In this document: positions 3,596 through 13,102 of the stretch, in pieces | Layout: the number at the start of each line of letters is the position of its first letter | Position numbering within the stretch: the first letter of the stretch is position 1 | Assembly: GCF_026339875.1 (NCBI RefSeq) | Contig: NZ_JAPEPZ010000001.1 | Coordinates: forward strand, 9,486,001 to 9,550,000 | Length of the DNA: 64,000 bases | Direction: 5' to 3' | DNA from: Streptomyces sp. NBC_01571 | GTDB lineage: Bacteria > Actinomycetota > Actinomycetes > Streptomycetales > Streptomycetaceae | Translations under genes and position numbers: made by a program | Notes under the pieces: generated by a model | The model's database searches: none | What the model was told of the DNA's origin: nothing | What the model saw: only the letters and a program-made list of their open reading frames with translations

Positions 3596-3624
3596 GGGGT
3601 GGTGTCCGCGGGGAGGTGTCCCCC

Positions 3625-3669
3625 GGGTGCATCGGGTGCATCGGGTGCATCGGGTGCATCGGGTGCATC
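3625..3669 (+). repeat. Five perfect tandem copies of a 9-bp unit
   Basis: The unit GGGTGCATC is repeated five times without mismatch, followed by a partial sixth copy. It lies between two convergent genes, 30 bp past the SDR stop. A unit length divisible by three keeps all six frames open but no supported gene crosses it. It looks like a replication-slippage minisatellite. Confidence 0.95.
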
Positions 3670-3729
3670 GGGTGTCCCGTACGCCTCCGTTACCGTCGGC
3701 TATGCCTCGTACGCCCTGGGTGTTCGGTG

Positions 3730-4830: not shown

Positions 4831-5109
4831 TCAGTCGTCGCCCTCCGAGCCCTCCTCGGCCTGGTGCGCCGCCACGAGGGCCTCCACCATGTCCACGGCA
4901 CTGCCCTCGTGGTCGCTGCCGGCCGTTCCACTGCCCTGCTGGACGTTCGCGGCCCGGTCCACCTCGAGGATCGAGTCGGCGTGCGAGTTGTCGAGCACGG
5001 TGATGAAGATGTCGCCCGCGGCCGCCGGTGCCGCCACGGCACCCAGCAGGGCCACGGCCAGTACGGAGGCCGTGCCCAGCCGCCGTGACGGGACGCACGG
5101 CGGTGTCAC
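4831..5109 (-). CDS. Small secreted protein, unknown function
   Basis: A 92-residue protein beginning at GTG 5109. Its first four bases (GTGA) contain the stop codon of the preceding isocitrate-lyase-family gene, so the two are very likely translationally coupled. Residues 1-31 form a signal peptide: basic start, hydrophobic A-V-L-A-V-A-L-L core, and an A-A-A-G cleavage region. The mature part is about 60 residues, acidic, Ser/Gly/Asp-rich, without cysteines, ending in E-G-S-E-G-D-D. I recognise no family. The coupling is the main evidence that it is a real gene; a function in the phosphonate locus is not shown. Confidence 0.55.
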   Translation of the reverse strand: MTPPCVPSRRLGTASVLAVALLGAVAAPAAAGDIFITVLDNSHADSILEVDRAANVQQGSGTAGSDHEGSAVDMVEALVAAHQAEEGSEGDD

Positions 5110-5969
5110 GCGCCCACGCCCTGGGGCTCAGGCCGAAGGCGCGCGATGTTGCGCTCCAGCAGCTGGGTGGCGGTCGCGACGCCGACACCGTTCGTCGTGT
5201 CCACCACCGGGAGCCGGCCGTCCGCCGCCCGGAGGTCGGCGAGCGCGGAGTGCATCGCCTGGTGGGCCGCGAACAGACACGGTGTGCTGTAGATGGCGAC
5301 GTCCACGCCGAGTTCGGACAGCTCGCTCAGGGAGAGCCGGGGCGACTTGCCGCCCGCGATCTGGTTGAAGAGCAGCGGCTTGTCACCGACCACCTTGCGG
5401 ATCCTCCGGATCCATTCCACGCTGCGCACGCCGTCGACGAGCACCACGTCCGCGCCGGTCGCGGCGAGCGTCTCGGCCCGGTGCAGGATGTCGTTCTCGT
5501 CGGTCGCGTCCGTGCGGGCCACCACGACCATGTCCTGCCGGGTCGCCAGCACCATCTCCAGCTTCGCGAGGTACTCGGACAGCGGCAGCACCTGCTTGCC
5601 GTCGGCGTGGCCGCACCGGCGCGGCCGCTTCTGGTCCTCCAGGATCACCCCCGACGCCCCGATCCGCTCCAGTCCCTCCACCACATGACAGGCGACCTCG
5701 GGATCGACGTACCCGTCGTCGATGTCCACCAGCAGATGGTGCCGGGGGAACGCGCCCCGCAGCCGCTGGACGAACGCCACCATGTCCGGCCAGGCGATGA
5801 ATCCGATGTCCGGCAGCCCGTAGTACGAGGCCGCGAAACCGAAGCCGGAGACGAACATCCCGTCGTAGTGCTCGGCCGCGATCGACGCCGAGTACATGTC
5901 GTGCACGCCGATCAGCGGAGTGGTCCCCGGTCCGGCGATCTGCTCCCTCAGCCTCTTCCCGTAAGTCAA
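5106..5969 (-). CDS. Isocitrate lyase/PEP mutase superfamily enzyme
   Basis: A 287-residue TIM-barrel enzyme of the PEP mutase/isocitrate lyase superfamily. Mg-binding acidic residues are in V-D-I-D-D-G-Y (D82, D84, D85), and E111 starts the gate loop E-D-Q-K-R-P-R-R-C-G-H with C119 and H121. The Cys-Gly-His resembles the K-K/R-C-G-H of C-C lyases such as methylisocitrate lyase. The Asn-Ser signature of true PEP mutases is absent, so C-C cleavage of a 2-hydroxy or oxo acid is more likely than C-P bond formation; substrate unknown. TTG 5969 is chosen: AGGAAGG precedes it by a good distance and the length fits the family, whereas an upstream ATG at 6119 adds unrelated sequence. It is divergent from the oxygenase fusion and coupled downstream to a secreted protein. 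Confidence 0.82.
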   Translation of the reverse strand: MTYGKRLREQIAGPGTTPLIGVHDMYSASIAAEHYDGMFVSGFGFAASYYGLPDIGFIAWPDMVAFVQRLRGAFPRHHLLVDIDDGYVDPEVACHVVEGLERIGASGVILEDQKRPRRCGHADGKQVLPLSEYLAKLEMVLATRQDMVVVARTDATDENDILHRAETLAATGADVVLVDGVRSVEWIRRIRKVVGDKPLLFNQIAGGKSPRLSLSELSELGVDVAIYSTPCLFAAHQAMHSALADLRAADGRLPVVDTTNGVGVATATQLLERNIARLRPEPQGVGA

Positions 5970-6269
5970 CGTCCGGTTCCTTCCTGGGGGTTGAACATGG
6001 CGGGCGGAACGGGCCGTCGCGACACGACACCCCTTTGCCAAGACAAAAGGATCTCTATATCGATACGGGGCCCTCCCCTTGGGCGGGCTTTGCTCACCCC
6101 AATGGCGCAAGCGGTTCACCGGAGAAACGTCACTCGTCCCCCGTCCGGTCGCCGGATGCCCTCGCCTGCTCGTTCATCCACGCGCAAGCCGCGCGTCACC
6201 CCCCGCTCAACTGCGACTGAGACCTTCACGGCATCGATAAAGTTGGCTATACAACTTAGGGAGAGAGTG
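5970..6269. promoter_or_regulatory. Divergent promoter region of the phosphonate-type locus
   Basis: 300 bp between the lyase-family gene and the oxygenase fusion. It is locally AT-rich compared with its surroundings around 6040-6066 and 6230-6258. The heptamer ATCGATA occurs twice, at 6059-6065 and 6233-6239. Both promoters must lie here, but I could not fix -10/-35 boxes with confidence. Confidence 0.6.
6240..6257. promoter_or_regulatory. Candidate GntR operator overlapping the ribosome-binding region
   Basis: Perfect 6-bp arms AAGTTG and CAACTT around the 6-bp centre GCTATA. It ends 12 bases before the ATG of the oxygenase fusion and abuts the GGGAGAGAG ribosome site. Position and symmetry suit a repressor site for the neighbouring GntR/UTRA regulator. 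The link to that regulator is inference. Confidence 0.5.
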
Positions 6270-7946
6270 ATGACCAAGTCACCATCAGTCACCCGGCCGT
6301 CGGCCGAGGAACCCGTCGTGGAGGACATGCCGCTCATGTGGCTGCGGGACAACTGCGCCTGCGCCCGGTGCCGGGACCCGCGCAACGGCCAGAAGCTGTT
6401 CCAGATCACCGAGCTGCCCGCCGGCCTCGCGCTCGGCGCGGTCCGGCGCACCGCCGACGGCGTCGAGGTCGACTGGGCACCCGACGGCCACCGCTCGGAG
6501 TACTCCACGCGGTGGCTGACGGACAACCGGCCCGGCACCGGTACCGACGACGGCCCCGGGGACCGGCGTGGCGAGACGGGCAAGACACTGTGGACCGCCG
6601 CCGACCTGGACGGCCTGCTGCCCGAGGCCGACTGGGCGGACTACCTGGGCGACCCGGTCGTCAAGGCCCGCGTGCTGGACTCGGTCCTCGGGCTCGGCTT
6701 CGCCCTGCTGCGCGACGTTCCCTGCCGCGCGGGCCAGGTGCTCGAGGTGGCGGAGACCTTCGGCTACGTCCGCGAGACCAACTACGGGCGGCTGTTCGAC
6801 GTACGGGTCGAACCGGACCCCAACAACCTGGCCTTCACCGGCTCGCGCATCACCCCGCACACCGACAACCCGTACCGCGACCCGGTCCCCACCCTCCAAC
6901 TGCTGCACTGCCTGGCCAACTCGGCGACCGGCGGTGACTCGGGTCTCGTGGACGGATTCAAGGCCGCCGCGCTGCTGCGCGCCGAGGACCCGGAGGGCTT
7001 CGCGGTCCTGACCCGCACCCCCGTGCCGTTCCGTTTCGGTGACGCCCGCACCGTACTGGAGGCCGAACGGCCGCTGATCGACGTGGACGGCCGCGGACGG
7101 ATCCGCGAGGTGCGCTTCAACAACCGCTCGATGTCCACCCTGCGGCTGCCCGTCGACGAACTGGAGGCGTTCTACCGGGCCTATCGGAAGTTCGCCGAGA
7201 TCACTCTGCGCCCCGAACTCCAGCTGGACTTCCGGCTCGCGCCCGGCGACTGCCTGATCTTCGACAACGTCCGGCTGCTGCACGCCCGCACCGCCTTCGA
7301 GGAGAGCGGCGCCCGTCACCTGCAGGGCGCCTACGCCGACATCGACGCGCTGGCCGGCACCCTGGCCGTCCTGCGCCGCGAACGGGACGCGGCCGGTGCG
7401 GAGTTCCTGGACGGGCTGTCCGACCTCTTCGCGGGCGAGGGCGCGGGCGCCTACCTGGGCGAGCCGGTGACGATGGCGCAGCACATGCTGCAGGCCGCCG
7501 CGCGAGCCCAGGAGGCGGGAGCGTCCGACGCGCTGGTGGCGGCCGCCCTGCTGCACGACGTCGGCCACTTCCACGGCCCGATCACCGGGGAGGACCTGAT
7601 GGCGGGCACCGACAACCGGCACAGCCACACCGGGGCGGACCGCCTGGCCGACTGGTTCGGTCCCGAGGTCACCGAGCCGATCCGGCTGCACGTGGCCGCG
7701 AAGCGGTACCTGTGCGCGGTCGAGCCCGAGTACTTCGGCCTGCTCACCGAGGCTTCCGTGTACACCCTTCAGGTGCAGGGCGGTCCGATGTCCGCGCCCG
7801 AGGTCGCCGAGTACGAGGCGAATCCGTACGCGGCGGACGGCGTCGCGGTGCGCCGCTGGGACGACGAGGGCAAGGACCCCGAGGCGTCGGCCCCCGACTT
7901 CGCGCACTTCCGGCCGCTGCTCGCCGCGCTGCTGCGGACCGCCTGA
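6270..7946 (+). CDS. Fused TmpA-like 2-oxoglutarate oxygenase and PhnZ/TmpB-like HD oxygenase
   Basis: A 558-residue bifunctional protein. Residues 20-80 are a gamma-butyrobetaine-hydroxylase N-terminal zinc module (C29, C31, C34, H74). Residues 120-370 are a TauD/TfdA-type Fe(II)/2-oxoglutarate fold with H197-x-D199, H338 and 2OG-binding R349. Residues 385-558 are a PhnZ-type mixed-valence diiron HD domain: Y395, E398, H405, H429-D430, H451, H474, K478 and R-R-W-D-D (D531). In known systems such enzymes are separate: the first hydroxylates a 2-(tri)methylaminoethylphosphonate at C1, the second cleaves C-P to give an amino acid (glycine betaine or glycine) and phosphate. The GBBH-like first half points to a TmpA- rather than PhnY*-type substrate (inference). 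ATG 6270 follows GGGAGAGAG. Confidence 0.85.
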   Translation: MTKSPSVTRPSAEEPVVEDMPLMWLRDNCACARCRDPRNGQKLFQITELPAGLALGAVRRTADGVEVDWAPDGHRSEYSTRWLTDNRPGTGTDDGPGDRRGETGKTLWTAADLDGLLPEADWADYLGDPVVKARVLDSVLGLGFALLRDVPCRAGQVLEVAETFGYVRETNYGRLFDVRVEPDPNNLAFTGSRITPHTDNPYRDPVPTLQLLHCLANSATGGDSGLVDGFKAAALLRAEDPEGFAVLTRTPVPFRFGDARTVLEAERPLIDVDGRGRIREVRFNNRSMSTLRLPVDELEAFYRAYRKFAEITLRPELQLDFRLAPGDCLIFDNVRLLHARTAFEESGARHLQGAYADIDALAGTLAVLRRERDAAGAEFLDGLSDLFAGEGAGAYLGEPVTMAQHMLQAAARAQEAGASDALVAAALLHDVGHFHGPITGEDLMAGTDNRHSHTGADRLADWFGPEVTEPIRLHVAAKRYLCAVEPEYFGLLTEASVYTLQVQGGPMSAPEVAEYEANPYAADGVAVRRWDDEGKDPEASAPDFAHFRPLLAALLRTA

Positions 7947-7990: not shown

Positions 7991-8776
7991 TCAGGTGTCG
8001 CCGGCCGGGCGGCGGGCCAGCGAGCCGGAGGCGGCCGAACTGTGGACGGTGAACGCCACGGTGTCCGGCAGGTACCGGTCGTCGGACCATTCGATCGGAG
8101 TGCCTGCCGGGTCCGTGCTGCACCGCCGTTCGCGCAGCAACGGGCCGCCGGGCCGGCAACCGAGCAGCCGGGCGTCCTCCGCGTCGGCCGGACACAGGTC
8201 GATGGTGTGCTGGGCGTCCGCGAACAGCACACCCCGTTCCTCCAGGGCCACCGTGTACGACACGGTGTCCGGCGGCAGTTCGGCGACCAGTTCACCGACG
8301 GCCGGCGGGAAGACGGTGCGCTCCACCATCGCGGGCCGGCCCGACAGCGTACGAAGCCGACGTACGTGGTGGACCTCGGTTCCCTCGGCAAGGCGCAGTT
8401 GTGCGCACTCGGTCGCGTCGGCGGGCCGGGTCTCCGTGGCGATCATCAGGCCGCCGGGTTCCTCGCCCATCGAGCGTGCCCAGCGGGTGAAGCTGAGCAG
8501 TTCGCCGAAACTCTGCGGCCGGGGCATCCCGATCACGACCCGTCGGGTACCGCGCCGCGAGGCGACCAGCCCCTCGGCCCGCAGCAGGGCCATCGCCTGA
8601 CGGACCGTGCCCCGGGAGACGCCGTACCGTTCGGCCAGCTCGCCCTCGGCGGGCAGCCGTCCGCCGGAGCCGTATCTGCCCTCGCCGATCTCCCGGCCCA
8701 GGTCCGCCGCCACCTTCCGGTACAGCGCCTGGTCCTTCGCCGCGCGTTTCCCGGTCCCGGCCGCGCCGTCCGTCAC
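7991..8776 (-). CDS. GntR family regulator, HutC/UTRA type
   Basis: A 261-residue regulator. An N-terminal winged helix-turn-helix (residues ~18-85, with L-P-A-E-G-E-L-A-E-R-Y-G-V-S-R-G-T-V-R) is followed by a UTRA ligand-binding domain (~100-245) as in HutC, FarR and PhnF. It starts at GTG 8776 preceded by GGAGAGA. It is convergent with the oxygenase fusion, 45 bp away. UTRA regulators of the PhnF type control phosphonate use in several bacteria, so this is the likely sensor of the locus. The effector and the palindrome at 6240-6257 as its site are inferences. Confidence 0.85.
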   Translation of the reverse strand: MTDGAAGTGKRAAKDQALYRKVAADLGREIGEGRYGSGGRLPAEGELAERYGVSRGTVRQAMALLRAEGLVASRRGTRRVVIGMPRPQSFGELLSFTRWARSMGEEPGGLMIATETRPADATECAQLRLAEGTEVHHVRRLRTLSGRPAMVERTVFPPAVGELVAELPPDTVSYTVALEERGVLFADAQHTIDLCPADAEDARLLGCRPGGPLLRERRCSTDPAGTPIEWSDDRYLPDTVAFTVHSSAASGSLARRPAGDT

Positions 8777-10693: not shown

Positions 10694-13102
10694 TCAGAGA
10701 CCGAGGGTGAACCAGGTCGTCTTGCCCTCGTCGGTGGGCCGTACGCCCCAGTCGTCGGCGAGGGCGCGTACCAGGATCAGGCCCCGTCCCGACTCCGCGT
10801 CCTCGGGCGCCAGGCGCGGCTGGGGAAGATGCGGGCTGTGGTCGCTGACCTCGACGGTGAGATCGGTCGCGGTCCGGCACACGTGCAGGCGGATGGGGCC
10901 CTGGGCATGCTGCACCGCGTTGGTCAGCACCTCGGAGAGCAGCAGCCGGGCGTCGTCCGCCAGGGCGGCGCAGTCCCAGGAGGTGAGGGCCTTGCCGAGG
11001 AAGGCACGGCCCTCGGGCACGGACTCGGGGACCGCGGGCAGGCCGGTGGTGACAGCGGCCAGGGGCGCGTCGGGGAGCCGGGCCAGCAGCAGGGTGACGT
11101 CGTCGTTGTGGCTCTCGGGGTCGGGCAGGAGTGCGGTCAGCACGTGGTCGGCCGCCGCCTCCAGGTCGGGGGCGGTGGTGAACAGCCGGCTCAGCGTGGT
11201 GGTGAGCTTCTTGAGTTGGTCCTCGATGTCACTGCCGGGGGTTTCGATCAGCCCGTCGGTGTAGAGCACGAGCGTCGCGCCCGGTGGGATGACCACGCTG
11301 GACTGCTGGTAGAGGACGCCGCCGACCCCGAGCGGCGCGTTCACGGGCACCGGGAGCGGACGGGCGCCGTCGCCGGGGGTGGCGACGAGGGTGGGCAGGT
11401 GACCGGCCGAGCAGATCGTCACCTCGCCCGCGTCCGAGGCGATCACCAGATAGCAGCAGGTGACCAGCTGGTCCGGCACGTCCAGGTCGGTGACACAGGT
11501 GTCGAGGGCCTGCATGAGCTGACGCGGCTGCATACCGGTCTTGGCCAGGGCGTGGGCGGCGGAGCGCAACTGTCCCATGACGGCCGCCGCTTCCAGGCCG
11601 CGTCCCATCACGTCGCCGATCAGGACTCCGACCCGGCCGGCCCCGAGGGGGATGAGGTCGAACCAGTCGCCGCCCACCCCCGCCCCCTGGGTCGCGGGCC
11701 GGTAGCGGCTGGCGGTGGGGAGACCGGGGATGGCCGGAGGGGTGCCCATCAGGCTGCGCTGCAGGGTCAGCGCGATGTGCCGCTGCTGCTCGTAGAGGGC
11801 GGTCAGCTCGGCCTCGGCACGCTTGCGGTCGCCGATGTCCCGTACGATCGCGCACGCGCCGACGACCGTGCCGTCCGCCGTCCGGGTCGGCCACAGCGTG
11901 ATGTCGACGTCCAGCAGGTCACCGGAGCGGGTGAGCCGTAACGTCTCGAAGTGCTCGACCTTCTCCCCGCTGCCCAGCCGCTCCATGAGGGCGTCGATCT
12001 CGTCCCGGTGCTCGGACGGAGCGAGCACGGACACGTGCCGGCCCATCACCTCCTCCGGGACGTAGCCGTACAGCCGTTGCGCGGCGGCGTTCCAGTACGT
12101 GATGTCGCCGTCGAGGGTCTTGGCGAGGATCGCGTCCTGGGAGGACTCAACGAGCCCGGCCAGCTCGTTGATGCGTTCCTCGGCGGCTTTGCGGTCGCTG
12201 ACGTCGCGGACGGCGGCGGAGAGGAGGAGGCCGTCGGTGGTTTCGAGGGGGGAGAGGCTGATCTCGACGGGGAATTCGGTGCCGTCCTTGCGGAGGCCGT
12301 TGAGTTCGAGTCCGGCGCCCATGGGGCGTACCTGGCGGTTGTTGGCGTAGCCGTTGCGGTGTTGGGTGTGGTGGGTGCGGAAGCGGCCGGGGACGAGGAT
12401 TTCGACGGGGTGGCCGAGGAGTTCTTCGCGTCGGTAGCCGAAGAGGGATTCGGTCTGTGCGTTGACGAGTCTGATGGTGCCGGTGTCGTCGACGATGACC
12501 ATGGCGTCGGGTGCCGCTTCCAGGAGCCCCCGGAACCGTTCCTCGGCGGCTTTGCGGTCGCTGACGTCGCGGACGGCGGCGGAGAGGAGGAGGCCGTCGG
12601 TGGTTTCGAGGGGGGAGAGGCTGATCTCGACGGGGAATTCGGTGCCGTCCTTGCGGAGGCCGTTGAGTTCGAGTCCGGCGCCCATGGGGCGTACCTGGCG
12701 GTTGTTGGCGTAGCCGTTGCGGTGTTGGGTGTGGTGGGTGCGGAAGCGGCCGGGGACGAGGATTTCGACGGGGTGGCCGAGGAGTTCTTCGCGTCGGTAG
12801 CCGAAGAGGGATTCGGTCTGTGCGTTGACGAGTCTGATGGTGCCGGTGTCGTCGACGATGACCATGGCGTCGGGTGCCGCTTCCAGGAGCCCCCGGAACC
12901 CCTCCTCGGCACCCGTGGGCGCTGCCCCGTCCAGCAGGGCCCCGCACCGGCACGGTTCCTGGAACACTGCACCGGCGGTCCGAGTTGAATGCGATCCGAC
13001 GAAGTCGCCCATGTCCGCCCCAGGTGTGCTGTTCGCTCTGAATCGGGCCATCCCAGCGGAATGGGGCGGAGGCCGCCCCGCCATGTCGGTTACTGGCTTC
13101 AC
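10694..13102 (-). CDS. PAS-PAS-PAS-SpoIIE phosphatase-HATPase regulator
   Basis: An 802-residue RsbU-type signalling protein. Two identical PAS domains (residues 69-189 and 190-310) are followed by a third, divergent PAS (~311-430), a SpoIIE/PP2C phosphatase (~455-665; G-D-W-F-D-L and I-G-D-V-M-G-R-G carry metal-binding Asp residues) and an RsbW-like HATPase (~675-800; E-V-L-T-N-A-V-Q-H-A). Such proteins link signal sensing to anti-sigma/anti-anti-sigma switching. The start may be 13102 or the internal ATG at 13012, whose product begins M-G-D-F-V-G; the upstream 30 residues are not domain-like. No sigma factor gene is adjacent. The PAS pair uses CTC and GAA more than the flanking CTG/GAG-rich parts, suggesting a separate origin. 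Confidence 0.9.
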   Translation of the reverse strand: MKPVTDMAGRPPPHSAGMARFRANSTPGADMGDFVGSHSTRTAGAVFQEPCRCGALLDGAAPTGAEEGFRGLLEAAPDAMVIVDDTGTIRLVNAQTESLFGYRREELLGHPVEILVPGRFRTHHTQHRNGYANNRQVRPMGAGLELNGLRKDGTEFPVEISLSPLETTDGLLLSAAVRDVSDRKAAEERFRGLLEAAPDAMVIVDDTGTIRLVNAQTESLFGYRREELLGHPVEILVPGRFRTHHTQHRNGYANNRQVRPMGAGLELNGLRKDGTEFPVEISLSPLETTDGLLLSAAVRDVSDRKAAEERINELAGLVESSQDAILAKTLDGDITYWNAAAQRLYGYVPEEVMGRHVSVLAPSEHRDEIDALMERLGSGEKVEHFETLRLTRSGDLLDVDITLWPTRTADGTVVGACAIVRDIGDRKRAEAELTALYEQQRHIALTLQRSLMGTPPAIPGLPTASRYRPATQGAGVGGDWFDLIPLGAGRVGVLIGDVMGRGLEAAAVMGQLRSAAHALAKTGMQPRQLMQALDTCVTDLDVPDQLVTCCYLVIASDAGEVTICSAGHLPTLVATPGDGARPLPVPVNAPLGVGGVLYQQSSVVIPPGATLVLYTDGLIETPGSDIEDQLKKLTTTLSRLFTTAPDLEAAADHVLTALLPDPESHNDDVTLLLARLPDAPLAAVTTGLPAVPESVPEGRAFLGKALTSWDCAALADDARLLLSEVLTNAVQHAQGPIRLHVCRTATDLTVEVSDHSPHLPQPRLAPEDAESGRGLILVRALADDWGVRPTDEGKTTWFTLGL
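12174..12900. repeat. Perfect tandem duplication of a 363-bp PAS-coding unit
   Basis: Positions 12174-12537 and 12537-12900 are identical by base-by-base reading. The unit encodes exactly 121 residues and preserves the frame. Mismatches begin immediately outside both borders. Complete identity at silent positions indicates a recent duplication or ongoing conversion. Confidence 0.95.

Follow-up and report, generated by a model that had tools for sequence, protein, structure and literature searches.

A fused TmpA-TmpB-type oxygenase of Streptomyces, a candidate bifunctional phosphonate-cleaving enzyme with a probable GntR operator

The window is a stretch of 64,000 nucleotides from Streptomyces sp. 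NBC_01571 (contig NZ_JAPEPZ010000001.1, positions 9,486,001 to 9,550,000). It contains one frame in which a TmpA-type 2-oxoglutarate oxygenase is followed by an HD-domain oxygenase of the TmpB/PhnZ type. A palindrome ends 12 nt 5' of the ATG of the fused gene, and a convergent gene for a GntR regulator lies downstream. The features are as follows.

6240..6257, no strand: palindrome AAGTTG-GCTATA-CAACTT, a perfect inverted repeat and probably the operator for the nearby GntR regulator
6260..6265, + strand: GGAGAG, probable ribosome-binding site, from reading the sequence
6270..7946, + strand: fused TmpA-TmpB-type oxygenase, 558 aa, one frame, from profile and structure comparison
6327..7385, + strand: N-terminal half, residues 20-372, GBBH-like N-terminal domain and TauD/TmpA 2-oxoglutarate oxygenase (NF049936, PF02668, PF06155, N186/N285/R286)
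7341..7433, + strand: junction, residues 358-388, modelled as a single unbroken helix (AlphaFold2, pLDDT 83.7, pTM 0.65)
7401..7931, + strand: C-terminal half, residues 378-554, HD-domain oxygenase of TmpB/PhnZ type (TIGR03276, NF049941, 13/13 positions)
7991..8776, - strand: GntR-UTRA regulator, PhnF-like, convergent (PF00392, PF07702)

Relatives of the locus were taken from the 80 best matches listed for the window protein (GTDB), referred to here as the best-matching loci. Two other genes of the window were considered as partners and rejected. The divergently oriented gene at 5106-6119 on the reverse strand encodes a member of the isocitrate lyase/PEP mutase superfamily, its best score being to methylisocitrate lyase (140.4 bits against a cut-off of 354.4). 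PEP mutases carry the motif EDKxxxxxNS. This protein has EDQKRPRRCGH, which we take to be lyase-like (CGH-type), and a relative in only one of the 80 best-matching loci; a phosphonate-linked PEP mutase was rejected on this motif and sparse conservation. At 8-841 there is a mycothiol-dependent formaldehyde dehydrogenase, cut by the window edge (544.5 bits, cut-off 512.9), with a hydrolase of the metallo-beta-lactamase fold next to it (region 8-1470). Demethylation of betaine gives formaldehyde, and the dehydrogenase is a suggestive neighbour, but no relative of it was found in the DNA around the 80 best-matching loci.

Two repeats were also observed in the window. A short tandem repeat with a 9-nt unit, GGGTGCATC, is present at 3600-3720. 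The reverse-strand frame at 10694-13102 encodes 802 aa and, judged by eye, contains PAS-like sensor repeats; a unit of 121 residues occurs twice in it with identical protein sequence and 362 of 363 DNA letters the same, and is a very recent tandem duplication.

The N-terminal half matches the TmpA equivalog NF049936 over residues 20-371 with 427.6 bits, above the cut-off of 400. The sequence-only reading had placed an active site at H197, D199, H338 and R349 and zinc ligands at C29, C31, C34 and H74. Both assignments were borne out: the first set is equivalent to H202, D204, H347 and R360 of gamma-butyrobetaine hydroxylase (GBBH), and the second is common to GBBH and DfmD. The phosphonate ligands of TmpA are N187, N287 and R288, according to a paper on DfmD (PMC9296572). 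In our alignment their equivalents in the window protein are N186, N285 and R286; the numbering of the 6npb chain is apparently offset by six. The N-N-R triad is present in 25 of 28 TmpA-type rows (the window and 27 loci picked from the 80), the exceptions being H-N-R in L057 and N-S-R in L070 and L080. Among the best database relatives NNRS is found in 120 of 120, and the chosen motif of each half in 119 of 120, P0031 having no exact copy of the A-half motif. Residues Y172, F176, F189 and Y355 form an aromatic cage, at positions assigned from human GBBH. An N-methylated aminoethylphosphonate had been put forward as the likely substrate, and the TmpA score, the cage and the triad are all consistent with this.

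In the tree of the A half the window falls within a well-supported actinobacterial clade of 17 rows. The fork through which this clade adjoins the characterised TmpA clade lacks resolution, and GBBH and DfmD, which serve as outgroup rows, sit on very long branches that meet. The CCCH zinc site is retained in 17 of the 17 rows, whereas characterised TmpA has A, D, T and K in its place. The site is degraded in characterised TmpA, in its relatives and in the gammaproteobacterial fusions, which suggests that structural zinc was lost in these lineages.

The C-terminal half scores 201.4 bits both against TIGR03276 and against the TmpB equivalog NF049941. The first falls short of its cut-off of 214.6, which no match in 296 genomes of the same phylum reached; the second falls short of 300, and the C half is therefore filed as TmpB-like and not as TmpB. 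It is closer to TmpB (164 bits) than to PhnZ (97 bits). The PhnZ-type residues noted in the earlier reading were found to be intact: at 13 of 13 positions that we selected for comparison, the letters are the same as in PhnZ and TmpB. The ligands H...HD...H...H...D and a YxxE loop (Y395xxE398) are present. This loop is a feature common to PhnZ and TmpB (PMC8177086). Both halves are 42-43% identical to characterised TmpA and TmpB, and the profile matches together with the complete catalytic ligands agree with the proposal that a TmpA-like and a TmpB/PhnZ-like enzyme share one chain of 558 residues. The C-half tree is weakly resolved: strong support is given to 7 of its 41 inner branches, and 19 are drawn open. 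The agreement of the phylogeny with the earlier reading is only loose: the A half adjoins characterised TmpA, but the fork between them and the C-half tree lack resolution.

The palindrome upstream of the fused gene recurs in relatives. Of 79 related loci, 24 have the exact 18-mer 5' of the gene and 55 match at least 14 of its 18 letters there. The latter level was reached by 16 of 395 random segments taken from these loci, and true sites may be present in some of the segments. This upstream scan excluded sites less than 30 nt from the domain start; those of L009 and L068 appear only in a separate scan. With arms of six nucleotides, AAGTTG-N6-CAACTT, there are 51 sites in the 1.27 Mb of the 79 loci. 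They occur at most 200 nt before the oxygenase domain in 40 loci and at most 250 nt before the gene for a transporter binding protein in 10 loci, with none elsewhere; six permuted-arm controls gave none each. Arms of five nucleotides give 83 sites, four of which lie outside the regions upstream of an oxygenase or transporter. Of the 79 loci, 51 have such a site ahead of the oxygenase (42 of the 50 fused and 9 of the 29 split ones), and 26 of 42 have it ahead of the transporter. The organism's own genome has the six-nucleotide-arm site twice, once at 6240-6257 of the window and once elsewhere; the reversed control was not found there. In L031, the window's nearest neighbour in the tree, no such palindrome was found ahead of the gene. 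The regulator itself scores 108.4 bits against the PhnF model TIGR02325, below the cut-off of 156.8, and a GntR-UTRA relative is nearby in 60 of the 80 best-matching loci and was not found in 20. The GntR protein probably binds the AAGTTG-N6-CAACTT palindrome, as judged from the position of the site.

Transport genes resembling phosphonate systems occur together with the oxygenase: a gene for a transporter binding protein is present in 42 of the 80 best-matching loci. No transporter relative adjoins the fusion in the close relatives L001-L004, and none was found among the scanned neighbouring frames of the window. In L011 the ATPase is nearest to PhnT2 (400.4 bits, cut-off 457.7), the binding protein is nearest to a 2-aminoethylphosphonate model (58.6 bits, far below its cut-off of 310) and the permeases are nearest to polyamine and molybdate models; as these matches lie below their cut-offs, any substrate named for the transporter is a guess. 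The organism's own genome encodes a binding protein 66% identical to that of L011, about 7 Mb from the fusion, in a set with a PhnT2-like ATPase (397.8 bits) and a second PhnF-like regulator (129.4 bits, cut-off 156.8). In this set (L090, 3164-10851; about 2.446-2.454 Mb of the contig) the binding-protein and ATPase genes are divergent from the second GntR gene, a related palindrome, AACTTG-TCTGAA-CAAGTT, lies between them, and genes of HAD and nitrilase type lie beyond. This set may constitute a second phosphonate regulon. In the organism's own genome no match to PhnJ, a C-P lyase family, was found.

The two halves are in one frame in 50 of the 80 best-matching loci and in two frames in 29, split pairs being common; in these counts distant split pairs are under-sampled because the loci are the best 80 listed matches. 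The C half was not found in L073, and L040, one of the 29, is interrupted inside its A half. In 15 of the 29 split loci the two genes overlap by 4 nt at stop and start. The N domain predominates in the VIA-align match list for the fused protein. Across 394 genomes of the class, the organism's own included and with at most three candidates scored per genome, a whole-length match in one place was found in three and adjacent separate A and C matches in nine. Among 392 genomes of the genus there were 16 matches at E 1e-80 or better, six whole-length and ten to the A half only, a limit that hides matches to the C half.

The fused state is polyphyletic. A tree built with IQ-TREE comprised 77 rows, 51 fused (including the window) and 26 split, after L073, L040, L056 and L076 had been dropped as C-less, partial or doubtful. 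It shows seven changes between the fused and split states, at least four of which are forced by well-supported branches, and fused and split forms of Streptomyces and other Actinobacteria are interleaved in it. The topology test rejects a tree in which all 51 fused rows form a single clade (AU p = 4.6e-37), and with it one fusion event for all of them. Two smaller groups were defined after the tree had been seen: for the 48 fused rows without L049, L050 and L055 a single clade is rejected (p 1.5e-6), and for the 45 Streptomycetaceae-type fused rows, including the window, it is not (p 0.33). Further fused forms are found in Catellatospora (L038), a Streptosporangiaceae isolate (L044), Kutzneria (L046), gammaproteobacterial MAGs (L049, L050) and an Acidimicrobiaceae MAG (L055), the last adjoining the characterised TmpA clade. 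The origin of the fused form in bacteria is scattered and probably repeated; the state changes may represent several fusions, or fusion followed by later splits. One TmpA-TmpB pair (L062, 7902-9641) is on a contig labelled Nocardioides marinus and groups tightly with Leisingera and Rhodobacteraceae rows, which suggests a recent transfer or a mislabelled genome.

The junction between the halves differs among fusions. It is a continuous helix in the window model, whereas in the model of the gammaproteobacterial fusion P0126 (pLDDT 82.6, pTM 0.51) it is a loop, with pLDDT below 50 at residues 380-384, and a rigid helix was therefore rejected as a general feature of the fusions. At pTM values of 0.65 for the window and 0.51 for P0126, neither model fixes the placement of the domains. 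The spacing between the YAD and YxGE motifs in fused loci ranges from 33 to 44 residues and is mostly 34 or 35; a spacing of 40 is shared by the window, L005 and the five fused relatives nearest to the window. With a helix in one model and a loop in the other, channelling between the active sites has as yet no structural support. The hydroxy intermediate that fusion might channel had been called unstable. This is not supported, since PDB titles show PhnZ and TmpB with hydroxy substrates bound (4mln, 4n71, 6npa), and an intermediate that has been crystallised in these enzymes is not evidently unstable. According to a review, (R)-1-hydroxy-aminoethylphosphonate is also the substrate of another enzyme, PbfA (PMC10574752).

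We therefore propose, with a probability of roughly 0.75, that the best explanation of the locus is a bifunctional phosphonate-cleaving enzyme under probable PhnF-like GntR control. The Fe(II)/2-oxoglutarate N half would hydroxylate a quaternary aminoethylphosphonate at C1; 2-trimethylaminoethylphosphonate is the likeliest substrate. The C half, a mixed-valent di-iron HD oxygenase, would then use O2 to cut the C-P bond, releasing phosphate and glycine betaine. The PhnF-like regulator probably binds AAGTTG-N6-CAACTT and keeps the gene repressed as long as neither the phosphonate nor a product of it is available. Relatives carry this site also in front of an ABC transporter, which probably imports the phosphonate.

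The same two-step chemistry could instead serve a different natural substrate: aminoethylphosphonate (AEP), its monomethyl or dimethyl derivative, or a quaternary phosphonate other than the trimethyl compound. The window's clade adjoins that of characterised TmpA and TmpB instead of falling inside it, which makes the substrate an inference; the third cage position is Phe189 in the window, as against Tyr in TmpA and GBBH, and the associated ATPase is nearest to a 2-aminoethylphosphonate model. We nevertheless regard a different substrate as rather unlikely, given a TmpA score above the equivalog cut-off, the aromatic cage and the NNR triad. TmpB is, moreover, far more specific to its own substrate and poor on hydroxy-AEP, as described in PMC11203657.

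It is highly improbable that the N half is a hydroxylase of gamma-butyrobetaine or another betaine, joined to a functionally unrelated HD protein. The CCCH zinc site does resemble that of GBBH and DfmD and is absent (ADTK) from characterised TmpA, and several sources label relatives as gamma-butyrobetaine dioxygenase. The score against that model (TIGR02409), however, is 356.9 bits, below the cut-off of 414.75, and the Arg of the phosphonate triad is replaced by Ala in human GBBH, while the DfmD triad is S-P-T. The association with a transporter, the common operator and the retention of every compared oxygenase residue in the HD half also argue against it. An assembly artefact, or the decay of one half, has next to no likelihood: split relatives exist and L040 is interrupted, but the frame matches the organism's own genome at 100% with no internal stop, the Fe and di-iron ligands do not vary across 40 fused rows, and the conserved fused relatives (50 of the 80 best-matching loci listed) refute such an artefact.

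The preferred reading, a bifunctional phosphonate-cleaving enzyme, has several known counterparts. TmpA hydroxylates trimethyl-AEP, and TmpB then forms phosphate and glycine betaine (PMC10574752). The TmpA and TmpB of Leisingera caerulea (PDB 6npb, 6npa) share with the window protein both folds, the catalytic ligands, the NNR triad and the YxxE loop; they are encoded by two genes, have ADTK and belong to a different clade, whereas the window has one chain and CCCH. PhnY*/PhnZ follow the same reaction logic from separate genes. It had been stated that the known pairs are separate genes, which is true of PhnY*/PhnZ and TmpA/TmpB; the same review, however, describes PhnY and PhnZ fused as PhoF in the fungus Fonsecaea multimorphosa (PMC10574752). 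By this description PhoF is bifunctional and, like the window protein, joins a 2-oxoglutarate oxygenase to an HD oxygenase of PhnZ type in one chain; its N half is described as PhnY and PhoF acts on AEP and 3-aminopropylphosphonate, whereas the N half of the window protein is of TmpA/GBBH type. In Streptomyces and other Actinobacteria, split TmpA-TmpB operons have two genes, a GntR relative in many cases and the window-type operator in 9 of 29. GBBH and DfmD share the fold, the CCCH site and the Fe/2-oxoglutarate ligands, and lack the NNR triad. Many relatives are named in NCBI and UniRef for one half each, as 2-trimethylaminoethylphosphonate dioxygenase or phosphonate degradation HD-domain oxygenase. 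In the literature searched we found no account of a TmpA-TmpB fusion, although the key TmpA/TmpB papers possibly mention one, and no biochemical work on the window's clade.

A wider picture is speculative, and we hold it to be improbable as a whole: TmpA and TmpB would have been joined several times independently, in Actinobacteria and marine Gammaproteobacteria, the hydroxylated phosphonate would be passed directly between the sites, and the pathway would supply phosphate and the osmolyte glycine betaine in soil. What is new here is the TmpA-type bacterial fusion, its polyphyly, the uncharacterised clade and the operator; the enzymes and the analogous fungal fusion are already known. The TmpA/TmpB route, characterised in Leisingera, would thereby reach into a clade of Actinobacteria that probably has a regulator and operator of its own. 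Closely related fused and split pairs occur naturally, so that it can be measured directly how fusion alters flux through a pair of oxygenases. We predict that many proteins named for one half, for example as gamma-butyrobetaine dioxygenase, perform both steps.
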